From Myxococcaceae bacterium (GTDB lineage Bacteria; Myxococcota_A; Polyangia; Polyangiales; Ga0077539): DNA of 36,402 nucleotides. Under the pieces are notes generated by a model. It was not told the origin of the DNA. It saw only the letters and a program-made list of their open reading frames with translations, and ran no database searches. Below are positions 11,433 to 23,441 of this stretch, piece by piece. Made by a program: the position numbers and the translations under genes. The stretch is from positions 1 to 36,402 of the forward strand of contig JAQBQI010000500.1 in assembly GCA_028287085.1 (NCBI GenBank), written 5' to 3'. The number at the start of each line of letters is the position of its first letter. The stretch's first letter is position 1.

Positions 11433-11476
11433 GTGCCCAGAGACGGAGTCGAACCGCCGACACGGGGATTTTCAAG
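11433..11476 (-). repeat. Right attachment core: 3' half of tRNA-Phe
   Basis: Identical to 814-857. Here the acceptor strand is followed by CCA on the minus strand (CTGGGCACCA), so this copy has an encoded CCA end that the left copy lacks. The bases preceding the anticodon loop on the minus strand are CGGGGC, not a tRNA 5' half, although four of them could still pair with the CCCC of the anticodon stem. Confidence 0.92.
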
Positions 11477-11689: not shown

Positions 11690-11854
11690 ATGAAGAGCCC
11701 GACCGGGGGCACGGGGGTGGCGAGCCCGAGGGCGACGCTTATCGGGTCGCTCACAGACGCCATCCGGGACGCGAGCGGGGCGGGCGACACGGGCGCGGCG
11801 CAGGTCGCGTTGGAGGCGCTATCGCGCCTGCTGGGTCGAAACGAGCGGCGGTGA
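11690..11854 (+). CDS. Small helical protein or tail of a truncated gene
   Basis: The frame is open well upstream across the attachment core, but only the last 54 codons look natural: GC-rich third positions and an amphipathic helix (SLTDAIRDASGAGDTGAAQV, then ALEALSRLLG). The ATG at 11690 lacks a ribosome site, so this may be the C-terminal remnant of a longer protein cut by element insertion. The stop overlaps the GTG of the DUF5996-like gene (GTGA), indicating translational coupling. No family is recognised. The 210 bases before it (11477-11689) show no supported gene. Confidence 0.4.
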   Translation: MKSPTGGTGVASPRATLIGSLTDAIRDASGAGDTGAAQVALEALSRLLGRNERR

Positions 11855-12246
11855 TCGACACCTTGGACGCCATTGCACGCGAGATCACCGTTCTGCCCTT
11901 GTCTCTCTACGCGCAGGTGATCCGGAAGATCCGACTCGCGCTGACGCCGACCGTCAACGAGTGGTGGACCGTCCCGCTCTACGTGACCGCGCACGGCCTC
12001 ACGACGTCGCCGATGCCGTACCTCGACCGCACGCTGTCCATCGACTTCGACTTCATCGACCACCGCCTGGTCGTGCTCGACTCCGACGGGCACGTCCGCG
12101 GGTTCCCGCTCACGGCGCGGCCGGTGGCGGCCTTCTGCGCCGCGGTGTTCGCCGAGATGGGCGTGCGCAAGACGAGCGACTTGCCGATCGTCGCGCCCAT
12201 GGTGGGCAAGGCGAAGCACGACCTCTATGAGGGCGTGCCCGCGTGA
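11851..12246 (+). CDS. DUF5996-family protein, short (N-terminal portion only)
   Basis: The 131 residues match the start of DUF5996 proteins: YAQVIRKIRLALTPTVNEWW, VPLYVTAHGLTTSPMPY, then LSIDFDFIDHRLVVLDSDGH. Family members, as I know them, are usually about 300 residues; the second half is missing. The frame ends at TGA overlapping the GTG of the next frame. GTG start at 11851, coupled to the preceding small frame. Function of the family is unknown. Either this is a short variant or a 3'-truncated copy whose end was replaced; the unrelated sequence of the next frame favours truncation. Confidence 0.7.
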   Translation: MIDTLDAIAREITVLPLSLYAQVIRKIRLALTPTVNEWWTVPLYVTAHGLTTSPMPYLDRTLSIDFDFIDHRLVVLDSDGHVRGFPLTARPVAAFCAAVFAEMGVRKTSDLPIVAPMVGKAKHDLYEGVPA

Positions 12247-12710
12247 GCGCCCTGTTCGAGGCCGACAAGGTGACCCTACCCGCATCGCCGACCCACGAGC
12301 TCGGCGGCGGCGAGGAGGACCCGCGCGGGATGGTCGACACGTTCGTGTCCGAACTGCACGGCCTCGGGCGCGAGGGGCACGACGACTGGGTGATGTGCAT
12401 GTGGGCCGGGGAGACCTGGGCGCGCCGCTTCATCCGCACGGAGGAGAGGCGGCGGAAGTTGAAGCGCCCGACACCCGACCTCACGCGGCTGCGGCGCGTG
12501 GCGGGGCGGTGGACCTCGCGGCGTAGGAATGCGCGGCGTTTGTGGGGGCGCCGTCTGAAGAACCGCGTGGGCTCTCAGGTCGACCAAAGTCGCGAGACGA
12601 GCGCGATCGCCTCCCGGAGCAAGGCCGCGTCGCTGACAGAGAACGTGTCGGTTCGCCAGAAGTCGCTCGTGATGGATTCGCCCCGTCGCAACCTCACGTC
12701 CTCGGGCTGA
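12243..12710 (+). CDS. Hypothetical protein with doubtful 3' end
   Basis: A GTG start overlaps the stop of the DUF5996-like gene. The first 95 residues have host-like codon use and look real (GMVDTFVSELHGLGREGHDD, then WVMCMWAGETWARRFIRTEE). After about 12510 the composition changes and the frame runs 136 bases into the end of the convergent nuclease gene, so the natural 3' end has probably been lost. No family is recognised. Best read as the front of a truncated gene. Confidence 0.4.
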   Translation: MSALFEADKVTLPASPTHELGGGEEDPRGMVDTFVSELHGLGREGHDDWVMCMWAGETWARRFIRTEERRRKLKRPTPDLTRLRRVAGRWTSRRRNARRLWGRRLKNRVGSQVDQSRETSAIASRSKAASLTENVSVRQKSLVMDSPRRNLTSSG

Positions 12711-13576
12711 CGGATGGCCACGCGGCAGTGGTTCTGAAACTCCGTGATGCGGACGACTTGCAGTCGCCCGCGGCACAGCGTCGCCCGGCCGTGCGAGTCC
12801 TCGTCAACGTTGAGGCCAGCATCGCGTACCTCGGACTTGATCGCCCGAGCGACCGAACCCGCGGAGTCGAACCGAACGCGCTCGAGTCGGTCGACCACCA
12901 GGCGGACGGGGTCAGCACGAGGCGTGCCGGGATCAGCCTTCGGGGGGGCCGAGAGGCGCCGGAAGGACATCGGTTCGCGTTGGACCGCCGACGGCAGGTT
13001 GCGGTCCAGCGGCGGCGCCGAGAGGGCGTTCAAGCGCGCGAAGACGCGGTCCATCGTCGCGCGGCAGGTGGCTGCGGCCGTGACGATGGACAGCAACTGG
13101 CCTTCCAGAGGCTGATTGAAGGCGTGGGGGTTGATATGGCCGAGCGAAAAGTCGGAGGCGAGTAGGTTGCGCCGCCTGCCTTGCAGACCGTCGCCCGCGA
13201 ACGGGTACTCGTCGGTGGCCGCGTAGATGACGCGGTATTCAAAGCCGTTGGTCAGAAGGCAGGCGCACTTCAGATCGCTGGCGTAGTTCCGCGCCTGGTC
13301 GACGTGCTCAACCTTGAGTTCGGGGTGTCGATTGGGGTCCTTCAGCTCGATTGCCAGGCAATGGACGCCCGTATTGGGCTCCGACACGAGGATGTCCGCG
13401 CCGCGGTTGAGGCGACGCAGGTGAAGGCGCGGCGTGCCTTGCAGGCTCCGCCAAGGCCCCTCGCTCAGCACCTCTGCGAACGTGTGCAGCATCACCGCTT
13501 CGGTGAAGGTGGGCTTGGCCCGGATGGCAGTGAGACGTGTCGCAATCGTGTGGAACGGCGCGGTGATTTCGTTCAT
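12575..13576 (-). CDS. PD-(D/E)XK nuclease-like protein (HsdR N-terminal type)
   Basis: A 333-residue protein. The N-terminal 120 residues resemble the nuclease domain found at the N-terminus of type I restriction subunits and stand-alone restriction-like proteins: D61 in NRGADILVSEP, then E77-L-K79 in CLAIELKDP, and Q94 in DQARNYASDL, giving a D...E-x-K...Q pattern. The C-terminal half has no clear family. The start is taken at the ATG at 13576 with GGGAGC close upstream; a GTG four codons earlier is possible. It faces the truncated genes on the plus strand and is separated from the HEPN-like gene by a dead transposase. A defence role is likely by family and context, but no methylase or helicase partner is visible. 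Confidence 0.62.
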   Translation of the reverse strand: MNEITAPFHTIATRLTAIRAKPTFTEAVMLHTFAEVLSEGPWRSLQGTPRLHLRRLNRGADILVSEPNTGVHCLAIELKDPNRHPELKVEHVDQARNYASDLKCACLLTNGFEYRVIYAATDEYPFAGDGLQGRRRNLLASDFSLGHINPHAFNQPLEGQLLSIVTAAATCRATMDRVFARLNALSAPPLDRNLPSAVQREPMSFRRLSAPPKADPGTPRADPVRLVVDRLERVRFDSAGSVARAIKSEVRDAGLNVDEDSHGRATLCRGRLQVVRITEFQNHCRVAIRQPEDVRLRRGESITSDFWRTDTFSVSDAALLREAIALVSRLWST

Positions 13577-13809
13577 GACAGCTCCCACTGCACGCTACGC
13601 CTAGGGTCGGTCGCGTGTCGAGGAAGGGAGCGCCGCGATCAAGACCTCCCAACGAATGCGTTCAGGTATCGAGGCACGGTCGGGAGGCGGTGTTCTGCCG
13701 TCCCGCGGACGGAGGTCTCCCTCCCCTCGCGACGAGACTGCATGGTGGTGAGGTGATTCGGACGGGACGGGGCGGTCGGTCGTGGAGGGTCCCGACGGAC
13801 CCTCATCCA

Positions 13810-14300
13810 AGTGGCAGCAGCATCAACTCCATCTCCAGGGCGTTGGGCACCGGACAGAGCACGCCGCAGCGCATCGCGCAGCTCCGACCACGTCAGGCGC
13901 GACCGCAGACGCACCCGCAGCAGCCAACCCAGCACGTTGTACGCCAGCATCCGCAGCCAGCTCAGCGTGCGAAGCGGCTGGTGCGAGACCACCTCCTTGG
14001 CGTTCGTCGCCCACGACGTCGTGTCCTCCGTTCACGCCCCGTCGAGCCCCCAAATTGCAGTCGTTCTCGATGCACCAGTGGCCGCGCACCACCGCCGGGA
14101 TCTGCCGCCCCGTCAGCGCGTTCCACGGCAGGTTCGTCAGGTACCAACCAGCGCTTTGTCACGACCTACTCCCGCCGGTCCTCGTGCCGCACCAGCCCAC
14201 CCCGCCTGTGCCGGTGCAGTTGGTGGTCGACGGGCGCGTGCTCACGACCGCCGTCGCGCGACAGAACGAGAGCGACCGCCTGCGGCAGGGACGGTCGGGC
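13810..14300 (-). pseudogene. Frameshifted DDE transposase remnant (ISAs1/IS4-like)
   Basis: On the minus strand the reading jumps between frames. One frame gives LTNLPWNALTGRQIPAVVRG followed by HWCIENDCN, the HW-x-IEN signature holding the catalytic Glu. Another gives SHQPLRTLSWLRMLAYNVLG and then LTWSELRDALRRAL, the usual C-terminal helices. An in-frame stop separates the first part from the region upstream. No terminal inverted repeats were found. It lies between the nuclease-like and HEPN-like genes and is not functional as read. Confidence 0.6.
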
Positions 14301-14312
14301 TGAGAGATGGAG

Positions 14313-15347
14313 TCAGGGTGCGCGCGAGATGTCCCGCGCGAGCGCCTCAAGCCACGCGATGCACGCGTTCATCTCGGGTTCCTCGGGGCGCATGTCCTTC
14401 TGCGCCTGCAACTTCGGGTGGATCATGTTGCGGAACTCGCGAAGTACCTTGTGAACCATCTGCGCCGAGTGGGGCTTCAGCAGGCCGAGGTCGACCGCCA
14501 CCTCGATGTACTCGAAGAACTTCCATTCTTCCGTCTCGATATCCTTCACTCCGCCCTTGCTCTTCGGTGCTTTCGGCGACGCCATCGCGAGCGCCTTCCG
14601 CGTTAGCAGCGCGTCGTAGAGGATGCCCTCGCTGATCGCACCGGCGAGAACCACCGATGCCATCGGAAGCACCGCTTCCCTCGCGATCGCGAGCTCGGCA
14701 GCCTTCGCTTCGAGGACTGCGCGCACCTCGGGGTCGCGCACGAAGGTCAGGTCCAACGTCCAGTCGGAGACCGACTGCGCGCGGCGCCCCCGCTGGGCCG
14801 ACGCAAGGTACTTCGGCTCTTCAGCAGCCCACTCGCGGCCCGACGACGTAACGAGAAGATGGCGCCCCCGCTCCGCCGCTCCCGTCTTCTTCTTGACCAG
14901 TTCGCGATCGAGGGCCCAGTCGATGAGGGTCGCCACCTCCTCCCTCCGCCAGCCCGTGTCCTCCTCGATCCCACGCTCGGTCGCGATGTAGCCCTCGGGG
15001 ACCCGTCTCACGTGCTCGACCAGCGCGAACCGCCTCTCGGGCTCCGTGCGGCCGCGGACGGCGGCATGCCCGTCCGAACGTACGATCCGCTCCAGCGCCT
15101 CCAGATGCCATGCGAGGAGCCGGTCGTTTTGAGAGTCCGCCTCGCGCGCCTTCGCTGCCGAAACTTCGAAGGCCTGCCGCCCCTCGTCCGCGAGCCAGGA
15201 CCCTTGCCCGGCCCTCGCGATCCAGTCCGCAACCAGATCCCTCCATCCGTCGGTACTGCCGTGCTTCGTCTCCTTCCACTGACGCGCCAATCGTGACGCC
15301 TCGTCGGCGACGTCGACTCTTCCGAAATGGGTCTTGAGCCAATCCAT
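14313..15347 (-). CDS. Winged-helix plus HEPN-like protein, candidate defence gene
   Basis: A 344-residue protein from the ATG at 15347, which has GGAGGGAC five bases upstream; an open frame extends 63 codons further but is not needed. Residues about 105-180 look like a winged helix (VPEGYIATERGIEEDTGWRR, then VATLIDWALDRELVKKKTG, then a wing). The C-terminal third (235-335) is all helical and ends VHKVLREFRNMIHPKLQ. The Arg residues R303/R306 with N307 and H310 fit the R-x(4-6)-H, often RN-containing, motif of HEPN domains. Many such HEPN proteins are toxins, RNases or RNA-binding sensors. No antitoxin-like partner is adjacent. Function is inferred from fold. Confidence 0.55.
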   Translation of the reverse strand: MDWLKTHFGRVDVADEASRLARQWKETKHGSTDGWRDLVADWIARAGQGSWLADEGRQAFEVSAAKAREADSQNDRLLAWHLEALERIVRSDGHAAVRGRTEPERRFALVEHVRRVPEGYIATERGIEEDTGWRREEVATLIDWALDRELVKKKTGAAERGRHLLVTSSGREWAAEEPKYLASAQRGRRAQSVSDWTLDLTFVRDPEVRAVLEAKAAELAIAREAVLPMASVVLAGAISEGILYDALLTRKALAMASPKAPKSKGGVKDIETEEWKFFEYIEVAVDLGLLKPHSAQMVHKVLREFRNMIHPKLQAQKDMRPEEPEMNACIAWLEALARDISRAP

Positions 15348-15420
15348 GCTGTCCCTCCAGCCGAAGGTCGTAGCACGCGAACGATCGGCCCTCGCTTCGT
15401 TGAGGGCCGCGCGAAGGGCG

Positions 15421-15904
15421 ATGCCCCCCGTCGCCCGCGGAAAGCTGGTGGACCTCGTGACGAACGAGGAGCTGCCCTTCGAGTCCAACCCCGAGGAGTT
15501 CGAGCTCACCCTGGGCGCGGAGTGGCACGCCGACACGCCGCACGGCGCCTCCCACGCCCGCCGCAGCTACCGAGGCGGCGAGGGCCGCGCGACGCCCTGA
15601 CGCTGGTCTTCCTACGGGAGACCCTCGACGCCTCAGACATGGAGGCCTCTCGCGTCGGCTGGGGGCGCTGCACTTCGCGGACTACGCCCCGGACGGGCGC
15701 CTGCGCGGCGGCGCACACCCGGTGCGTCTGCACTTCGGCGCGTGGAAGACCCTTTGCTGCACCGTCGGCAAGATCGAGCTTGGGTTCGGGCCGTGGTTCG
15801 ACCCGGAGACCCTCCGGTCGGGCGGCACTAAGGCGACGATCGCGCTCGACGAGGCGCCCGCCGCGGGCGACCTGTCGGCCGACGACGTGCGGCGCGGCGC
15901 GTGA
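15421..15904 (+). pseudogene. Contractile-injection-system tube-type (LysM-like) gene, frameshifted relic
   Basis: Three successive frames each carry part of one protein: GKLVDLVTNEELPFESNPEE and LTLGAEWHADTPHGASHARR, then DALTLVFLRETLDASDMEAS, then PVRLHFGAWKTLCCTVGKIE and LGFGPWFDPETLR up to DDVRRGA and a stop at 15904. This order matches the CIS tube/LysM-type protein of contractile injection systems and tailed phages. At least two frameshifts and a small deletion after DMEAS make it non-functional. The next relic overlaps its stop by GTGA, as such genes do in intact clusters. No sheath, spike or AAA+ genes of that system remain in the window. Confidence 0.62.
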
Positions 15905-16238
15905 ACCTCCTGCGGTCGAGCCCTTGGGCCCGCGAGCCGCGCTACTGGGAAGCGCGGACGGGCGAGGTCTTCTTTGGCCCGCGGCAGCCCGTGCGCCTCG
16001 TGCCGTCGGCCGACGACGCGCTGCACACTTGGCGCGCGGGCGACCGGCTGGGCCTGCTCGCGCACGCGGCGTGGACGACGCGAACCTCTGGTGGCTGCTC
16101 TGCGACCTCAACGACGTCGTTGACCCCTCGGCGATCGAGGTCGGGGCCGTGCCCCACGTCCCGTCGCGCGCCCGCATCGAGCTCGTCGTTCTGGGAAAGG
16201 TCTGGGTGGGATCTTGTCGGTTGAAGATCCGTGGCTAG
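15901..16238 (+). pseudogene. Baseplate protein (gp53-like) relic, frameshifted
   Basis: The GTG at 15901 opens MNLLRSSPWAREPRYWEART, then VRLVPSADDALHTWRAGDRL and GLLAHAAW. A frameshift follows and the rest reads DDANLWWLLCDLNDVVDPSA, IEVGAVPHVPSRARIELVVL to a stop at 16238. The pattern of a short protein placing a residue-rich NLWW-LCD-N motif before a LysM-like strand is typical of gp53-type baseplate wedge proteins encoded next to the tube/LysM gene. Together with the preceding relic it marks the remains of an injection-system operon. Confidence 0.55.
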
Positions 16239-16247
16239 GCTTCGACC

Positions 16248-16645: not shown

Positions 16646-17443
16646 CTACTCGCCTCCTCGAGCCAGTCGAAACCCGACGGTGGGTCTGCCGTCACGCGGA
16701 TGGAGCGCATCGCGCACCGAGGCGCGAACGGCCCTGGGATGATCCTCCCACGAGCCCCCACGGATGACCCGCGTCGCGCCTTTCGACGGTCCGGTGGGAT
16801 CGACCGCGGGTCTCCCGTCGTAGGCCCCGTGCCAGTCCGAGCACCACTCCCAGACGTTGCCCAGCATGTCGTAGAGGCCGCGGGGATTCGGCGCCTTCCC
16901 TCGAACGGCGTGCGACGTGTTGCCGCTGTTCGCCGCGTACCATGCGATCGAGTCCAGTTCCTTCGCGCGAGTGCCGTTCGCCGTCAGGGTCAAGGCCCCG
17001 GCCCAGGTTGCTGCCGTGGTCCCCGCGCGGCACGCGTACTCCCACTCCGCCTCGGTCGGCAGGCGAACCCCAAGGCCATCCACGCCATCGTTGAGCGCGC
17101 GGACGAAGTCGGAGCAGTCCTCCCAGCTCACAAGTTCCACCGGCCAATCGGCACCCTTGAATCGGGCGGGATCCGCTCTCATGACTGCCTCCCACAGCGC
17201 TTGCGTCACGGGCGTGTCGCCGAGCCAGTAGCCCCGCGTGATCACCACCGAGTGTCTGGTCTCGTCTCGCCGCCGCCCCGCCTCGATTCGGGTCGAGCCC
17301 ATCTCCAGGCAGCCCGGCGGGACCCATCGCATCCGTTGCTCTGCCCCAGCCACCGCAAAGGCCACGAAGGGGCCGTAGCGGTCGTCGCCCCAGGCAGTAG
17401 CCCACCGCGGCGGTAGCCCTGAGCGCAAGGGGTTCGCGCTCAT
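16646..17443 (-). CDS. FGE/SUMF1-fold protein, catalytic cysteines absent
   Basis: A 265-residue protein with a full formylglycine-generating-enzyme fold: MRWVPPGCLEMGSTRIEAG, HSVVITRGYWLGDTPVTQAL, VRLPTEAEWEYACRAGT, GLYDMLGNVWEWCSDWHG, RVIRGGSWEDHPRAVRAS and GFRLAR. The RGGSW motif is followed by EDHPRA, where true aerobic sulfatase-activating enzymes have a Cys pair, so formylglycine formation is unlikely; a binding or EgtB/PvdO-like role is possible. The ATG at 17443 (MSANPLRSG) is preferred over a longer open frame. It lies 183 bases downstream of the FGE fusion gene on the same strand and is its short paralogue, so it probably belongs to the same system. Confidence 0.82.
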   Translation of the reverse strand: MSANPLRSGLPPRWATAWGDDRYGPFVAFAVAGAEQRMRWVPPGCLEMGSTRIEAGRRRDETRHSVVITRGYWLGDTPVTQALWEAVMRADPARFKGADWPVELVSWEDCSDFVRALNDGVDGLGVRLPTEAEWEYACRAGTTAATWAGALTLTANGTRAKELDSIAWYAANSGNTSHAVRGKAPNPRGLYDMLGNVWEWCSDWHGAYDGRPAVDPTGPSKGATRVIRGGSWEDHPRAVRASVRDALHPRDGRPTVGFRLARGGE

Positions 17444-17626
17444 AGCACCGCCGCGCAATCGGTCGAGAAGCGCCGGTCTTGCTCCCGCTCGTAGGTCTCG
17501 CAACGGCGGACGGGGATGGTCGTGGCGTGCCGTCTCAAACGCTCGCGCTCCTACCCCGGTCGATACCCTCGGCGTCCCTCTCCGTGAGCGTCCGAACGCC
17601 CATCTCTTCTGACCTCTTACCGATCG

Positions 17627-20428
17627 TCACTGCGGACCTCGACCGAGCCGGAGACCGACCCCGTGAACACGTTCGTCAGGGCTGTGTGCGAAGCGAGCCG
17701 CCGCCCGGAGGCTCCGCGCGTGGTCGATCCAGGAGCCGCCACGAGCGACCCGCGCCGAGCCCGTCGATGGCCCGATGGGATCAACCGCAGGCGATGCGTC
17801 GTAGGGGCCACTCCAGTCCGCACACCACTCCTGAACGTTGCCAAGGAGATCGTAGAGGCCGTGCGGATTCGGCACCCTCCTGAGACCATCGCTCGTTCCG
17901 CCGACGATGTCCCCACCGTACCTCGCGATCGCGTCCAGCTCCTTCGCACGAACGGCATCGTCCGACAGCGTGAGGTTTCCCACCCAGGTCGCCGTCGCGG
18001 TCCCTGCGCGGCATGCGTACTCCCACTCCGCCTCCGTCGGCAGGCGAACTCCGAGACCTTCGACACGCTCGTTGAGCACGCTCACGAACACCGCGCAGTC
18101 GCTCCAACTGACACCGTCCACCGAGCGATCCGAGTCTCCGAATCGAACTGGTTTCGGTAGGGGTTCGACCGCGCGGATCGCGGGCTCCGGCTCCCGCTTG
18201 GGCGGGGGTTCCACGCGTCTCAGCTTCTTCACGCCCGGGGCGACCTCGACCTCCACGAACTGCGCTTGCTTCTCGCGAAGCAGCACTGTTCGGATCTGGT
18301 CGAGGTACGCCGCGTCGACCTTGGACATCTTGTTCCTCGCTTCGATCCCGAGCGCGCGGATCTTCTGCAGAACGGCGTCGGTATCCACCTTGAGATCCTC
18401 CGCGATCTCATAGACCCTGACTGTCGCGGTCGGAGTCAGCCCCATCACCGCCGCCCACAGTCCATGCGTCACCGGGGTCTCTCCAAGCCAGTACCCGCTC
18501 GTCAGCGCCACCTGGTGCTGCGGTCCTTCCTCCGAGAGGCGCCCCGCCTCGTCCTCGGGCGAGCCCATCTCGAAGCGGCCTGGTGGGATCCATCGCATCC
18601 GATACTCCACCCTGCCCACCGTGAACAACGCCCAGAGGCCGTGGCGATCACGACCTGCCGCGCGAGCCCATCGGTCCCGCGACCAGCGCCGCAGCTGCAA
18701 CGCCCCGCGGGCCGCATCGAGCGTCAGCTGCTCCGCCCCACCGAGCGACGTGGTGAGACCCCGATGAATCATCTGCTGCAGGCGGGAGACAGGCCGAGAC
18801 AGCAGCAGCTCCGGCCCCGACGCCTCCAGCGTCGCGACGGGGCTTCCGGGGCGCACGTGGTCGGCCTGCGATGCGTCGCCGAGCGGAGCGTAGGTCAGCG
18901 CACCGCCCACCTGACGCAGCGCCCAGGCCATCGTCGGCCTCTCGCCGCGCCTCGCCGCGCGCAGCGCCGCGATGTCGACGCCTTCGGGCGGTTCGACCTC
19001 GTCCGTCCCTTCGTGCGCCGCGTCCCAGATACGCGCGAGAGCGGGTACCTCGCGGTAGCCCGAGGCCGGCATTCCGTCGAGCATCGCACCGCCGTAGTGC
19101 CGGAGGCCGTCGCGCTCCATCGAACCGCGCTCGGGCCGCGATAGCGTGACGGCAAGGCGCTCCATGTAGCTCACCGCTTCCGCGTGGTCCGCGCGACCCA
19201 CCGCGGGCGAGGCGAACTGTCGCCACGCGATCGCCTCCGCGTAGCGCAGTTCTGCGGGCGCTCGCGCGCGCCACCGACGCAGAACTTCGTCCACGCGCCG
19301 TTGGAGGCTTTCATCGAGCTCACGAAACCGCGCGCGCAACGTCGCGCGCATCTTCGAGCGCAGCAGCAGGCCCGTCCCGTCGGCGGCCTCGACGGCCGGA
19401 TGGTTCCACGCCTCAAGCTCGGTCCCGACGGTGGCCTCCGGGAGCAGCCAGCGCAGCGCGCGCAGAAGCCCGGGCGGCGCCGTCGACGCCGCGGAGGCGA
19501 TCAGCATGAGACGATCGAGTGCGGCGGGGTCATCATGCGAGGCGCGCATCTCCCAGGACACGACGCGCGCAGACGACTGGTCCATCTCGCGCGCGGACTG
19601 CGGCACCAGCGCTGTAGCCTGGACTCCCGCCGCGTGGAGGGCTCGCAGCGCCTCGCGCCAGCGCTGACGGTCCACCTCGGCGCGCCCACCCAGGTCACCG
19701 AGAATCAGGACCGGCCGCACGGGGTCGGGCCGGTGTCCCTCGATCCATCCTCGCGGCGACCGCGCCGCCCGCGCATGCGCCGCTCGGTCGAGCCAGCGGA
19801 CGTCGAGCGCCCGACCAAACACGGCGCGCAACCCGCGCTCCACGCGCCGCTGGTCATGCCACAGCGGAACCAACTTGGGATTGCGATCGATCCACAGCGA
19901 CGCCCGATCGGCCCATGCGCGCCGCTGCACGCGCGGGACGACCACCACCGGCTCGCCCCGCAACCAGCAGCGGACCAGTTCGTTCACGTCGGGTTCCTTC
20001 GCCGCGCGCACCGCGTGGAGTGCCGACTGCAACACGGGCCACAATCGTCGCCAGGGCGTGAGCGGAGGAGGTTCTGGGGCCGCGAAGAGCGAATCTCCTT
20101 CGCCCCGGGCTTCCGCGGAGCTGAGGCCGACGGCTTCGTCGCGCGGCGTGCCCTGTTCGGAAGCGGCGGGCGGCAGGTAGCGCTCAGCGCGCCAGAAAGA
20201 TGCGGGTTCGTCTGTCGGCGTGGTTTCCAGGCCTGCTACCGCATCGTCAAAGCGTTGCTGTGGCGAGGGCTGGGGTTGGTACCGCTCGCGCGGCGGTACT
20301 TCTGGAACGTCGACGGCAGGGGTCTCCGCCCGATCGAAGCCCACGACCGTCACCGCGTCGCACGCTTCATCGCGTGGGAACGAGGCCACGACCCGAGCAA
20401 GATCGACGAGCCCGACGAGCGACCTCAA
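17627..20428 (-). CDS. Large FGE-fold fusion protein with an inserted IF2_N-like domain
   Basis: A 933-residue protein started by TTG whose codon overlaps the stop of the MoxR gene (TTGA), so translation is coupled. Order: a short N-terminal segment (1-30), a Pro-rich linker (40-125), an alpha/beta region (about 150-290) with VRPVLILGDLGG followed by helix and VQATALVP, vWA- or Rossmann-like but without a DxSxS metal site, then a long helical region (300-580), and an FGE fold (605-931). The FGE fold is split. After WLGETPVTHGLWAAVMG comes an insertion (667-762) starting VRVYEIAEDLKVDTDAVLQ and IRALGIEARNKMS, matching the N-terminal IF2_N domain of translation initiation factor IF-2, plus a Pro/Glu linker. 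The fold then resumes at VRFGDSDRSVDGVSW. RGGSW is followed by IDHARS, so the catalytic Cys pair is missing. It is likely the recognition or scaffold protein of the MoxR system. Confidence 0.8.
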   Translation of the reverse strand: MRSLVGLVDLARVVASFPRDEACDAVTVVGFDRAETPAVDVPEVPPRERYQPQPSPQQRFDDAVAGLETTPTDEPASFWRAERYLPPAASEQGTPRDEAVGLSSAEARGEGDSLFAAPEPPPLTPWRRLWPVLQSALHAVRAAKEPDVNELVRCWLRGEPVVVVPRVQRRAWADRASLWIDRNPKLVPLWHDQRRVERGLRAVFGRALDVRWLDRAAHARAARSPRGWIEGHRPDPVRPVLILGDLGGRAEVDRQRWREALRALHAAGVQATALVPQSAREMDQSSARVVSWEMRASHDDPAALDRLMLIASAASTAPPGLLRALRWLLPEATVGTELEAWNHPAVEAADGTGLLLRSKMRATLRARFRELDESLQRRVDEVLRRWRARAPAELRYAEAIAWRQFASPAVGRADHAEAVSYMERLAVTLSRPERGSMERDGLRHYGGAMLDGMPASGYREVPALARIWDAAHEGTDEVEPPEGVDIAALRAARRGERPTMAWALRQVGGALTYAPLGDASQADHVRPGSPVATLEASGPELLLSRPVSRLQQMIHRGLTTSLGGAEQLTLDAARGALQLRRWSRDRWARAAGRDRHGLWALFTVGRVEYRMRWIPPGRFEMGSPEDEAGRLSEEGPQHQVALTSGYWLGETPVTHGLWAAVMGLTPTATVRVYEIAEDLKVDTDAVLQKIRALGIEARNKMSKVDAAYLDQIRTVLLREKQAQFVEVEVAPGVKKLRRVEPPPKREPEPAIRAVEPLPKPVRFGDSDRSVDGVSWSDCAVFVSVLNERVEGLGVRLPTEAEWEYACRAGTATATWVGNLTLSDDAVRAKELDAIARYGGDIVGGTSDGLRRVPNPHGLYDLLGNVQEWCADWSGPYDASPAVDPIGPSTGSARVARGGSWIDHARSLRAAARFAHSPDERVHGVGLRLGRGPQ

Positions 20429-21426
20429 CCGCCGCGCTCTCGCGGATGTTTGCGGGTCGCCAGGCGCTTCACTTCCTCAAGTAGAGCGAGCTGCGCCTCG
20501 ACGTTCCGTGCCGACTCGACGACGACGCGCAACAAGTCGACGTACTCGGCCACGCCGGGCAGACACACACCGGTTCCTTGGAGTTCCGCGCGATCGTCCG
20601 CGAGGATCTCGGCCGTTCGGCGGAGCACCTCGGGCTGGCAGCCTTCGACGTTGGCTGCCCCGCGCGACATGAGCAAGGCGATGAGTGCCTCGCGCCCGCT
20701 GGGGAGCTCGATTTGCAGCACGAGACAGCGACGCACGAAGGCATCGGGCAGGGCGCGGTCCTCGTTGGTGGTGATGATCACCAGCGGGCGCGGCTTCGCG
20801 GCGGTGACGACGACGCGTCCCTCGACGTCGAAGCGGCCGTGGCCGAAGGCGTCGAGGAGGCCGTTGGGCACCGAGGGGTCGGCCTTGTCGATCTCGTCGA
20901 CGAGCAGCACGACACCCTCCACGTTGGGGTCGTCGGCAGTGGGCGGAGGCGGCATCTGCGCGACCTTCGCCTGCTCGCTCGCGGAGGCCCAGTCGTAGGC
21001 CCACCAAAGCGGACCCGGTTGGACGAAACGCATCACGTCGATCTGATCGAGTGCGTTCTCGGAGCCGCGACCGAGCGAGCCGGCGAGCTGCGCGCGGGCG
21101 AGCCGCGAGACGGCATCGACCGAATAGAGGAGATCGCGGGTCTCGGTGCGCGAGTCGACCGTGAAGGGCAGAAAGCGTCGTCCGAGGAGCTGAGCAGCGG
21201 CGCGCGCGAGCTGACTCTTGCCCGTGCCAGGCTCACCACGCACGAGGAGGGGGCGCTCGGCGGCGAGAGCGGCGTTGACCGCGAGAGCAGAGGCGCGATC
21301 GAGCACGTGCGCGGTCGCCGGGTGCGCGCCGAAAGCGGGGAGATGAACCAAGGTGGACCGGGGCGGTTGGCCTTCGTCCACCCTGGGAGGTACGTCGATG
21401 CGTCTGAGCTGGGTCGGCGGGTTCAT
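20425..21426 (-). CDS. MoxR-type AAA+ ATPase
   Basis: A 333-residue ATPase started by an ATG that overlaps the stop of the metallophosphoesterase gene (ATGA). Walker A is GEPGTGKS (64-71), Walker B LLVDEID (174-180), sensor 1 ITTN (218-221) and the arginine finger RR at 232-233, all in the order of MoxR/RavA-type AAA+ proteins; PFTVDSRTETRDLL (87-100) is the usual pre-Walker-B segment. The C-terminal lid is short. MoxR ATPases act as remodelling chaperones, often paired with vWA proteins; none with a clear metal site is visible here, so the FGE fusion may be the partner. Position in the middle of a three-gene overlapping operon supports a joint complex. Confidence 0.9.
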   Translation of the reverse strand: MNPPTQLRRIDVPPRVDEGQPPRSTLVHLPAFGAHPATAHVLDRASALAVNAALAAERPLLVRGEPGTGKSQLARAAAQLLGRRFLPFTVDSRTETRDLLYSVDAVSRLARAQLAGSLGRGSENALDQIDVMRFVQPGPLWWAYDWASASEQAKVAQMPPPPTADDPNVEGVVLLVDEIDKADPSVPNGLLDAFGHGRFDVEGRVVVTAAKPRPLVIITTNEDRALPDAFVRRCLVLQIELPSGREALIALLMSRGAANVEGCQPEVLRRTAEILADDRAELQGTGVCLPGVAEYVDLLRVVVESARNVEAQLALLEEVKRLATRKHPRERGG

Positions 21427-23441
21427 TCTCTTCTCCGAGGGAGCAGATCCATGACGTGCTGAACGATCGTGGCTTCGTCCGGGTTGGCCGATCCGGCGAG
21501 CTTTACCAAGCGGAGGCTGGGGAGGCCGTCGCGCCCGCGGTGCGCCGCACGCGCGATCTCCCAGAGTCCGTGATCGCGTTCCCCGAAGGTCACGTAGTAG
21601 GGCCTCGCGGCACCGAGCGGACGCTCGTAGCCCAACGCGCGCAGCGTGCCTTCCACGTCGGCGATCGCGGCTTTCGAGTCGGGCTGCTCCTTCGCCTCCC
21701 GGAGATGATTGAAAGCCGCCACTTCCATCGTGAGGTGCCGAACCATCGCCTCGACGAAGCGCTCGCGCGTCGGGATCACCGCCCCACGTAGGACCACAGG
21801 CAGCTCGACCTGCGTGACCCCGACGGGCAGGTCGTCGCCGCGGCGGGCGAACTCGGGCGCGCGCGAGTCCGCGTCCGCGAGAATGAGTTCTGCGAGGGTC
21901 TCTTTGCGCAATGGCAGTTCCACGTCGTTGGTTCCGTCCGACCCCAGCGCTTCCCTCACCCGATCGCTGAGTTCGCGCCAGTCGACCGCGCGGGGAAGAC
22001 ACAGCCCCAAGAGCGCGGAGGCCGCGCGGCGATCTTCCGTCGTCGCGGCGGGATCGTATTCCAGCGCAGCCGAGGCCGCGTTGAGGCGGCGCGCGACGGT
22101 GCGTGCAGTTTGGCCGAGGAGTTCTCGCGCGACCGTCTCCGCGTCGACGTCAACACCTCCTACCGAGAAGCAGGCCAACAGCCGTGGTCGCGCCGCGAGC
22201 AAGCCCCGGAGAGTACGGTCGGCCGCTGCGACTCGGTCGGACACCACCCCGGCTTCCGTGGTCGCGGGCGGGACGCCTGGCCCAGTGCTCCCCTGCTCGC
22301 TCTTGGAAGAGGCGCCCGCGTCGGCCGCAGCGCCGGACTGCACGATCTGCTCGGGCGGCGTCGTAGCAGGTAGCTTCACTCGCGGGAGCGGGTGGGTTGC
22401 GTAGCCCGTCTCATCGTCCGCCGCGTCGTTGTCGCGCTGGAAGCGTCGCTTCGGATCTGACCACTTCCGCGGCCACACGCGCACCACGACCTCGTCGCCC
22501 GGCGCGATGATGGCCCCAAAGCTGTACCCATGCCGCGCCGCCCCTCCTGAAGATTCCTTCTCTCCATGCGCTGCTCCGGCGGAGATGTGAACGAAGTCCT
22601 GCCCTGCACCTGAACGCGTCTGTTGGTTGCTCGCCTCGTGCACGTGGCCGGACAGGTGGATGTGTGCGTGCCGCCTCGTCCACGCACTTGCTTCCTTCTC
22701 GTCGTGAAGCCAGCCCTCGATGAAGGGGTGATGGCTCATGACGATCACGACCTCGCCGGCCGCGGCGGCCTTCGTAAAGGCATCTGCCAGTTGGCGCTTG
22801 CCGAGACGCAACCTTCCCCGGTCCGCCTCGAACACCTTCTCGTCCGCCGCAAGTAACGCGGTGTTGAAGCCGACGAGCCGGACCTTGAGGCCGCCACGAC
22901 CGGCAACTGTGTGCGTCCAGTACGGCATCGGCGACTCCGTGGTCGTCCGACAAGCGTTCGCGTGTTGCGCGGCAAACGCGAGGTAGTTCGACTGTCGCCG
23001 CATCAGATAGGCGCGCGCGTTCGTGTCCTCCAGCGCCTGGTCCAGTTCGCGCGTACCGGCTCTGAGCACCTGCAGCACTGCGGCGTCATTGAATGGCTTG
23101 TCCTCCGAGCGCTGCACGTCGTGATTGCCCGGGACGAGGTACACCGCCTCGGGTCCGACCCCCGCCGCCGCGGCCACCTCGCGGAGCCAGCGCGCCGCAC
23201 GGTCGTACTCGTCCTTCGCCACACACGAGCCGCTGAAGGCGATGTCGCCGGTCACGAGGATCACGTCGGGCCTCGGATGACCTGCGTCGATCTGCGCGGC
23301 GACGTCGTCGCGCAACGCACCCAATACGAGCTGCTGGTCGGCCACGTGGCTCGCTCCCCCGTGGCCGATGTGGATGTCCGAGAGGTGGATCCAGCTGAAG
23401 AGCAGGGTCGGGTTCACGCGGGGATGCTCGCCTCCGCGCAC
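21423..23441 (-). CDS. Calcineurin-like metallophosphoesterase with long C-terminal region
   Basis: A 672-residue protein. The N-terminal 310 residues show all dimetal phosphoesterase motifs: HLSDIHIG (D22, H24), VTGDIAFSG (D66), VPGNHDVQ (N106, H107), MSHHPF (H237) and LSGHVHEA (H266, H268). An acidic linker follows (about 375-405). A helical region (405-560) has LACFSVGGVDVDAETVAREL and a C-terminal helical part ends near VQHVMDLLPRRRE; neither matches a family I can name. The family hydrolyses phosphodiesters, including nucleotides and nucleic acids. GTG starts at 23441 and 23417 are both possible; GGAGG stands upstream of the second. It heads the operon with the MoxR ATPase and FGE fusion and is the likeliest effector enzyme. 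Confidence 0.85.
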   Translation of the reverse strand: MRGGEHPRVNPTLLFSWIHLSDIHIGHGGASHVADQQLVLGALRDDVAAQIDAGHPRPDVILVTGDIAFSGSCVAKDEYDRAARWLREVAAAAGVGPEAVYLVPGNHDVQRSEDKPFNDAAVLQVLRAGTRELDQALEDTNARAYLMRRQSNYLAFAAQHANACRTTTESPMPYWTHTVAGRGGLKVRLVGFNTALLAADEKVFEADRGRLRLGKRQLADAFTKAAAAGEVVIVMSHHPFIEGWLHDEKEASAWTRRHAHIHLSGHVHEASNQQTRSGAGQDFVHISAGAAHGEKESSGGAARHGYSFGAIIAPGDEVVVRVWPRKWSDPKRRFQRDNDAADDETGYATHPLPRVKLPATTPPEQIVQSGAAADAGASSKSEQGSTGPGVPPATTEAGVVSDRVAAADRTLRGLLAARPRLLACFSVGGVDVDAETVARELLGQTARTVARRLNAASAALEYDPAATTEDRRAASALLGLCLPRAVDWRELSDRVREALGSDGTNDVELPLRKETLAELILADADSRAPEFARRGDDLPVGVTQVELPVVLRGAVIPTRERFVEAMVRHLTMEVAAFNHLREAKEQPDSKAAIADVEGTLRALGYERPLGAARPYYVTFGERDHGLWEIARAAHRGRDGLPSLRLVKLAGSANPDEATIVQHVMDLLPRRRE

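Follow-up and report, generated by a model that had tools for sequence, protein, structure and literature searches.

The window analysed here is a whole contig (C441) of 36,402 bases, from a parent assembly of 5.7 Mb that is 64.6% complete. Two genes, P0001 and P0002, lie on the same strand 737 bp apart, with both open reading frames (ORFs) intact and decayed DNA between them (Table 1), an arrangement that the earlier note had described and that ORF reading and GC content by codon position confirmed. Both frames look like real genes because their GC content is strongly periodic by codon position (0.67/0.49/0.83 in P0001 and 0.69/0.47/0.84 in P0002), whereas the profile of the intervening stretch is flat (0.72/0.66/0.69). 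Shine-Dalgarno-like purine runs lie upstream of the ATG of each gene. A residue check found the signature residues named in the note at their positions, namely D61, E77 and K79 in P0001 and R303, R306 and H310 in P0002. The whole window was without a match in Rfam.

Table 1. Coordinates of features in the window
Feature	Position	Strand	Details	Basis
44-bp perfect direct repeat	814-857 and 11433-11476		bounds the segment below
Repeat-bounded segment	814-11476		10.6 kb, lower GC
DUF5996, N-terminal part only	11851-12246
P0001	12575-13576	minus	ATG 13576 to 12575, 333 aa; alternative start GTG 13588
P0001, PD-(D/E)XK-like features	12575-13576	minus	D61, E77-x-K79, Q94xxxY98; C-terminal part about 215-333 unassigned	motif, model, hhalign
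Decayed, frameshifted DNA, read as IS4/ISAs1-type transposase C-terminus	13640-14300	minus		three-frame reading by eye
P0002	14313-15347	minus	ATG 15347 to 14313, 344 aa
P0002, predicted HEPN domain	14316-14759	minus	residues 197-344; R303, R306, H310, helix-2 acid E240	model, fold alignment, conservation
P0002, N-terminus	14760-15347	minus	residues 1-196, helical, possible winged helix ~100-175	model
Frames resembling broken tail-tube/baseplate genes	15420-16240	plus
Four-gene run, candidate defence operon	16646-23441	minus
Gene for a 933-aa protein	17627-20428		FGE-sulfatase match 611-928, IF2_N match 667-713

Three minus-strand frames in the decayed DNA together read as what we take to be the C-terminus of a transposase of the IS4/ISAs1 type. 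Four ORF fragments between the two genes had no Pfam match at E ≤ 0.1, and the genome itself holds no second copy of this transposase-like DNA, so that the "dead transposase" of the earlier note stands as a decayed C-terminal remnant in the three-frame reading, with neither a Pfam match nor another genomic copy behind it. Its placing of the genes next to an integrative element was borne out: the perfect 44-bp repeat bounds a segment of lower GC that contains a small serine recombinase, and both genes lie beyond this segment, in DNA of host-like GC. The repeat resembles the 3' end of a tRNA and its second copy runs on to CCA; ARAGORN and Rfam found no whole tRNA at the repeats. For the truncated DUF5996 gene, a same-genus relative has a longer frame, and an empty-site test through this fragment yielded one same-genus genome, in which only 250 bp align and no synteny was gained. 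The plus-strand frames listed in Table 1 resemble broken tail-tube and LysM-type baseplate genes; one ORF from them had no Pfam match.

The four-gene run encodes an FGE-sulfatase, an IF2_N/FGE protein, a MadB-like AAA ATPase and a metallophosphoesterase, the last of which resembles the N-terminus of the anti-phage protein DS8. The FGE-sulfatase match in the 933-aa protein spans its IF2_N match, as if a domain of a translation factor had, unusually, been inserted there. The position of the FGE-sulfatase, AAA and DS8-like metallophosphoesterase genes further along the same strand fits a defence island. At E ≤ 0.001, P0002 had no match in the six same-family genomes sampled and P0001 none in 12, as expected of accessory genes.

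The two regions of P0002

The C-terminal domain of P0002 is very probably a HEPN domain, which would make P0002 an RNA-cutting suicide enzyme. Residues 201-344 were modelled with pLDDT above 80, mostly above 90, and in a VIA-align comparison 23 of the first 26 aligned solved chains (Z 10.8 to 6.7) are HEPN toxins or families, as counted by chain name or by the families in Table 1 of PMC3710099, with some assignments made from titles. The remaining three comprise 1wty and a pair of HepS entries, and the rows beyond these 26 have Z of 6.5 or less. The alignments include HepT 6m6u (Z 10.8, 2.7 Å over 116 residues), the sacsin HEPN domain 3o10 (Z 10.6, 3.1 Å over 123 residues) and AbiA 8oz7 (Z 10.0, 3.5 Å over 121 residues), values near 10 being moderate for a helical domain. 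Foldseek alone returned nothing significant for the model (best HEPN chain, E = 0.73); the HEPN assignment therefore rests on the uniform VIA-align list together with the motif and the acid described below.

The HEPN hallmark, as set out in the relevant part of PMC3710099, consists of an Rx4-6H motif where helix 3 ends and an acid in helix 2. In P0002, R303-x6-H310 fits this spacing, and the helix at 292-309 stops just ahead of H310; R306-x3-H310, with a spacing of three, falls outside it, though R306 is conserved. The helix-2 acid is E240, within the helix at 228-249, and is invariant in 12 of 12 domains; it occurs as E240-x3-Y244, the common Ex3[KR] form being absent. Across the alignment of these 12 related domains, the members of which came from a whole-protein search without motif selection, E218, G236, E240, R306, H310 and P311 are the same in every member, with R303 and N307 nearly invariant. 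The plain pattern R[NDHE]x3-5H arises in 2077 of 5000 shuffles of P0002, and RxxRNxxH followed by P, E, G, S or A in two of 5000. Searches of Pfam, NCBIfam, PADLOC and PHROG gave no useful family match for P0002; within Pfam there was no match at E ≤ 1, DUF4145 (PF13643) and the AbiJ N-terminal domains included, and a later scan likewise found none of the latter at E ≤ 0.01.

The N-terminal region (~195 residues) was modelled with pLDDT mostly between 35 and 67. It contains predicted helices at 102-115, 124-131 and 135-151, at low pLDDT (about 50-67), and a wing-like motif, VTSSGREW, which together make the winged helix proposed in the earlier note plausible only: the wing-like motif and the helices speak for it and the low confidence of those helices against it. 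This region had no relatives in the other 376 phylum-sample genomes, and a comparison with 1290 genes from related HEPN loci gave none at E < 0.1. Its similarity to two other HEPN proteins with a possible HTH (BLASTP E = 0.71 and 0.027) was unconvincing and was set aside.

Relatives of P0002 and their neighbours

Relatives of P0002 occur in six of the 376 other phylum-sample genomes, with all matches within residues 180-342, and on plasmids of Streptomyces, Deinococcus, Paraburkholderia and Prevotella. A motif-seeded scan yielded 361 confirmed family loci in species genomes from many phyla, together with 21 in viral contigs. The 80 species loci that were fetched, one of them from an archaeal MAG, were selected with the pattern [LV]R[DE][FYH]RNx[IV]HP, so the invariance of R303, R306 and H310 in them is by construction; the alignment of 12 domains is free of this effect.

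To tally neighbours, 101 loci (80 species, 21 viral) were reduced to 87 by dropping eight near-duplicates and six without a clean core gene. Adjacent genes (n = 113; same strand, at least 100 aa, within 250 nt of the HEPN gene) were set against 116 control genes from the same loci (either strand, more than 5.5 kb away; one open-ended gene was dropped from 117), with genes over 1200 aa shortened to 1200 for the scan. The adjacent genes included HsdS (13), MmeI methyltransferase-like (7), HSDR_N (4), RhuM (3), AbiH (2) and Abi_C (2) genes. HsdS was found in 13 of 113 adjacent versus 2 of 116 far genes (Fisher P = 0.003), whereas ResIII (6 versus 7) and N6_Mtase (4 versus 5) were not enriched. 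Nearly contiguous same-strand neighbours, at 30 nt or less from the HEPN gene, were present in 46 of the 87 loci. This association with restriction-modification (R-M) genes is known in kind, since solo AbiJ-type HEPN proteins in R-M operons were already reported in 2013 in part of PMC3710099; our literature search for a description of the family took up nothing beyond that paper and PMC10799925. Together with the fold comparison, the motif and the conserved acid, the R-M neighbourhoods of its relatives bear out the description of P0002 as HEPN-like. On three Streptomyces plasmids a large AAA-domain gene precedes the HEPN gene with a 4-base overlap or a gap of 1-2 bases, and in P. fungorum a PIN-domain gene comes next after it. 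A caspase-like ORF was noted by eye downstream of the HEPN gene on a Prevotella replicon (locus L010, 3479-4700).

A family alignment (A7) was built from 102 rows: P0002, 88 core genes of two scans (L137 kept among them), four loci with the start codon set by eye and a further nine members that other searches had supplied. At E ≤ 0.01, 17 of the 102 match DUF4145 (best E = 1.3e-4) and seven match the PADLOC AbiJ model. The PADLOC Stk2 kinase model matches 35 of the 102, although these are HEPN proteins; such matches probably arise through a common N-terminal domain, and annotation with the Stk2 model may mislabel HEPN proteins of this kind. A loose SKA.(R/K)(L/M)R-like motif is carried by 41 of the 102 members, and the N-terminus of P0002 is not of this type. 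The family is often found next to restriction systems, yet Pfam and PADLOC miss nearly all of it, and P0002 represents one further sensor-like N-terminus on it.

P0001, a putative nuclease

P0001 is probably a DNA-cutting enzyme, a putative PD-(D/E)XK nuclease as judged from its sequence. Beyond the residues named in the earlier note it contains an extra motif, QxxxY (Q94xxxY98). The pattern D..[DE]xK alone is not above chance, arising in 1854 of 5000 shuffles of P0001; with a downstream QxxxY it arises in 13 of 5000, and in the strict form with hydrophobic neighbours in none of 5000. The strict motif is found in 18 of 901 genes of related HEPN loci. A low-confidence model (mean pLDDT 39.5) predicts a helix, three strands, a helix and two strands; the elements H24-38, E51-56, E60-65, E72-78, H90-98 and E104-109 come in the order expected of the alpha-beta-beta-beta-alpha-beta core of PD-(D/E)XK nucleases. 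In this low-confidence prediction D61 falls on strand 2, E77-x-K79 on strand 3 and Q94xxxY98 on the helix that follows. Alignment by hhalign with four HsdR N-termini placed the D and ExK in register and ran through QxxxY, with a single-sequence E of 0.013 and a probability of only 3.4; with six MmeI N-termini, E was 0.35. P0001, only 333 aa long, had no match in Pfam, HSDR_N included, and none to a helicase. Foldseek found no significant match to the model, and the best VIA-align rows of this poor model are not nucleases (frataxin-like at 235-333, Z 6.4; flagellar FliF-like at 43-120, Z 5.3). What supports the PD-(D/E)XK assignment is thus the extended motif and the order in which the elements are predicted, and no trustworthy model.

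Credible relatives of P0001 were found in none of 377 phylum genomes, 183 order genomes, plasmids, phages, viral contigs and species genomes, nor in 50 genomes that carry HEPN relatives (of 80 loci of this kind, 50 were searched); several of these were close-relative searches, which distant relatives could escape. The best other match in the order genomes had E = 0.001. The single other match in the phylum genomes (E = 2e-4) was rejected, as it is interrupted by a stop and other frames at the same place hold more likely genes. A resemblance of P0001 to one HEPN protein of a related locus (phmmer E = 3.7e-5) was attributed to chance: one of 200 shuffles reached 4e-5, hhalign gave E = 0.58 and the G..E signature is absent.

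Two accessory genes or one system

Our preferred reading, to which we assign a probability of roughly 0.6, is that P0001 and P0002 are separate accessory genes in one island, both of defence types already known, with extra domains that are orphans; of the two options offered in the earlier note, two independent defence genes fit best. P0002 would be an effector of the abortive-infection type, with an AbiJ/DUF4145-like C-terminal HEPN endoribonuclease that its own N-terminal region may keep inactive. This region may serve as the infection sensor, possibly through DNA binding by a winged helix; on such a trigger it would free the RNase, and translation would stop. P0001 would be a separate PD-(D/E)XK nuclease, with a catalytic part like the N-terminus of HsdR, that cuts foreign DNA and acts without helicase, specificity or methylase partners. 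The transposase debris would simply lie between two defence genes gathered in the same island.

The other option is that a DNase, P0001, and a suicide RNase, P0002, form one two-component system into which an insertion sequence landed and then decayed. The genes share a strand and are separated only by 737 bp of decayed DNA; in 7 of 87 loci a gene no more than three genes away from the HEPN gene has a P0001-type nuclease motif, and five of these carriers exceed 1000 aa; HsdR and HEPN genes co-occur in R-M operons; and part of PMC3710099 proposes, for R-M-linked HEPN proteins, a logic in which a DNase is backed by an RNase. Nevertheless, the phylum, order, species and HEPN-relative genomes searched included none that carries the two genes together, whether the transposase is present or not, no HsdM, HsdS, methylase, specificity subunit or sensor was found in the subset of window ORFs scanned, and defence islands gather unrelated genes, so that we regard a single system as unlikely. 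A more specific proposal, in which an AbiJ/DUF4145-like HEPN RNase bears a new infection-sensing domain at its N-terminus and forms a methylase-free pair with the HsdR-like DNase P0001, appears more doubtful still; if P0001 proves to be the partner of P0002, DNase and RNase would be coupled without a methylase.

P0002 might also be a winged-helix DNA-binding regulator with a HEPN domain that only binds RNA or a ligand and does not cleave, a role that has been proposed for MtlR. MtlR is among its fold matches (Z 7.3), its N-terminus has the wing-like motif, and non-catalytic HEPN domains are noted in part of PMC3710099; but P0002 keeps R303, H310 and E240, unlike inactive HEPN domains, its family adjoins R-M genes and its winged helix is of low model confidence, which leaves such a regulator quite improbable. 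Least probable of all is a lone toxin with the antitoxin of its pair lost or unrecognised nearby: although the best fold matches of P0002 are HEPN toxins of HEPN-MNT pairs, no short nucleotidyltransferase ORF was seen by eye beside it, none of the 25 families most often found next to its relatives is a nucleotidyltransferase, and the large extra N-terminus suggests self-control.

Among known systems, EC042_2821/DUF3644 HEPN proteins appear in Table 1 of PMC3710099 as fusions with wHTH and REase domains and as members of R-M operons, whereas the nuclease and HEPN candidates here are separate genes and P0002 has no DUF3644 match. The anticodon nucleases PrrC and RloC are, like P0002, HEPN RNases by assignment, proposed in the same paper as a second line of defence; they have ABC ATPase N-termini, and P0002 has neither such a domain nor adjoining hsdMSR among the ORFs scanned. 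BxaP, as presented in part of PMC10799925, is an anti-phage protein with a DUF4145-type HEPN domain, the kind to which P0002 is likened, and is tied to another defence system; unlike P0002, it has an N-terminal HEPN domain and a HEAT-like C-terminus and is linked to BREX. P0001, unlike HsdR, is 333 aa long, with no helicase, Pfam match or methylase and specificity subunits among the ORFs scanned, and it shares with the HsdR N-terminal nuclease domain (HSDR_N) the order and spacing of D..ExK..QxxxY. P0002 itself matches neither AbiJ nor DUF4145, and its N-terminus matches no AbiJ N-terminal domain in Pfam; as in the AbiJ-type/DUF4145-like proteins of PMC3710099 (Table 1 and accompanying passages), some of which lie in operons with R-M systems, a C-terminal HEPN domain with Rx4-6H is joined to an N-terminal region of a variable kind.
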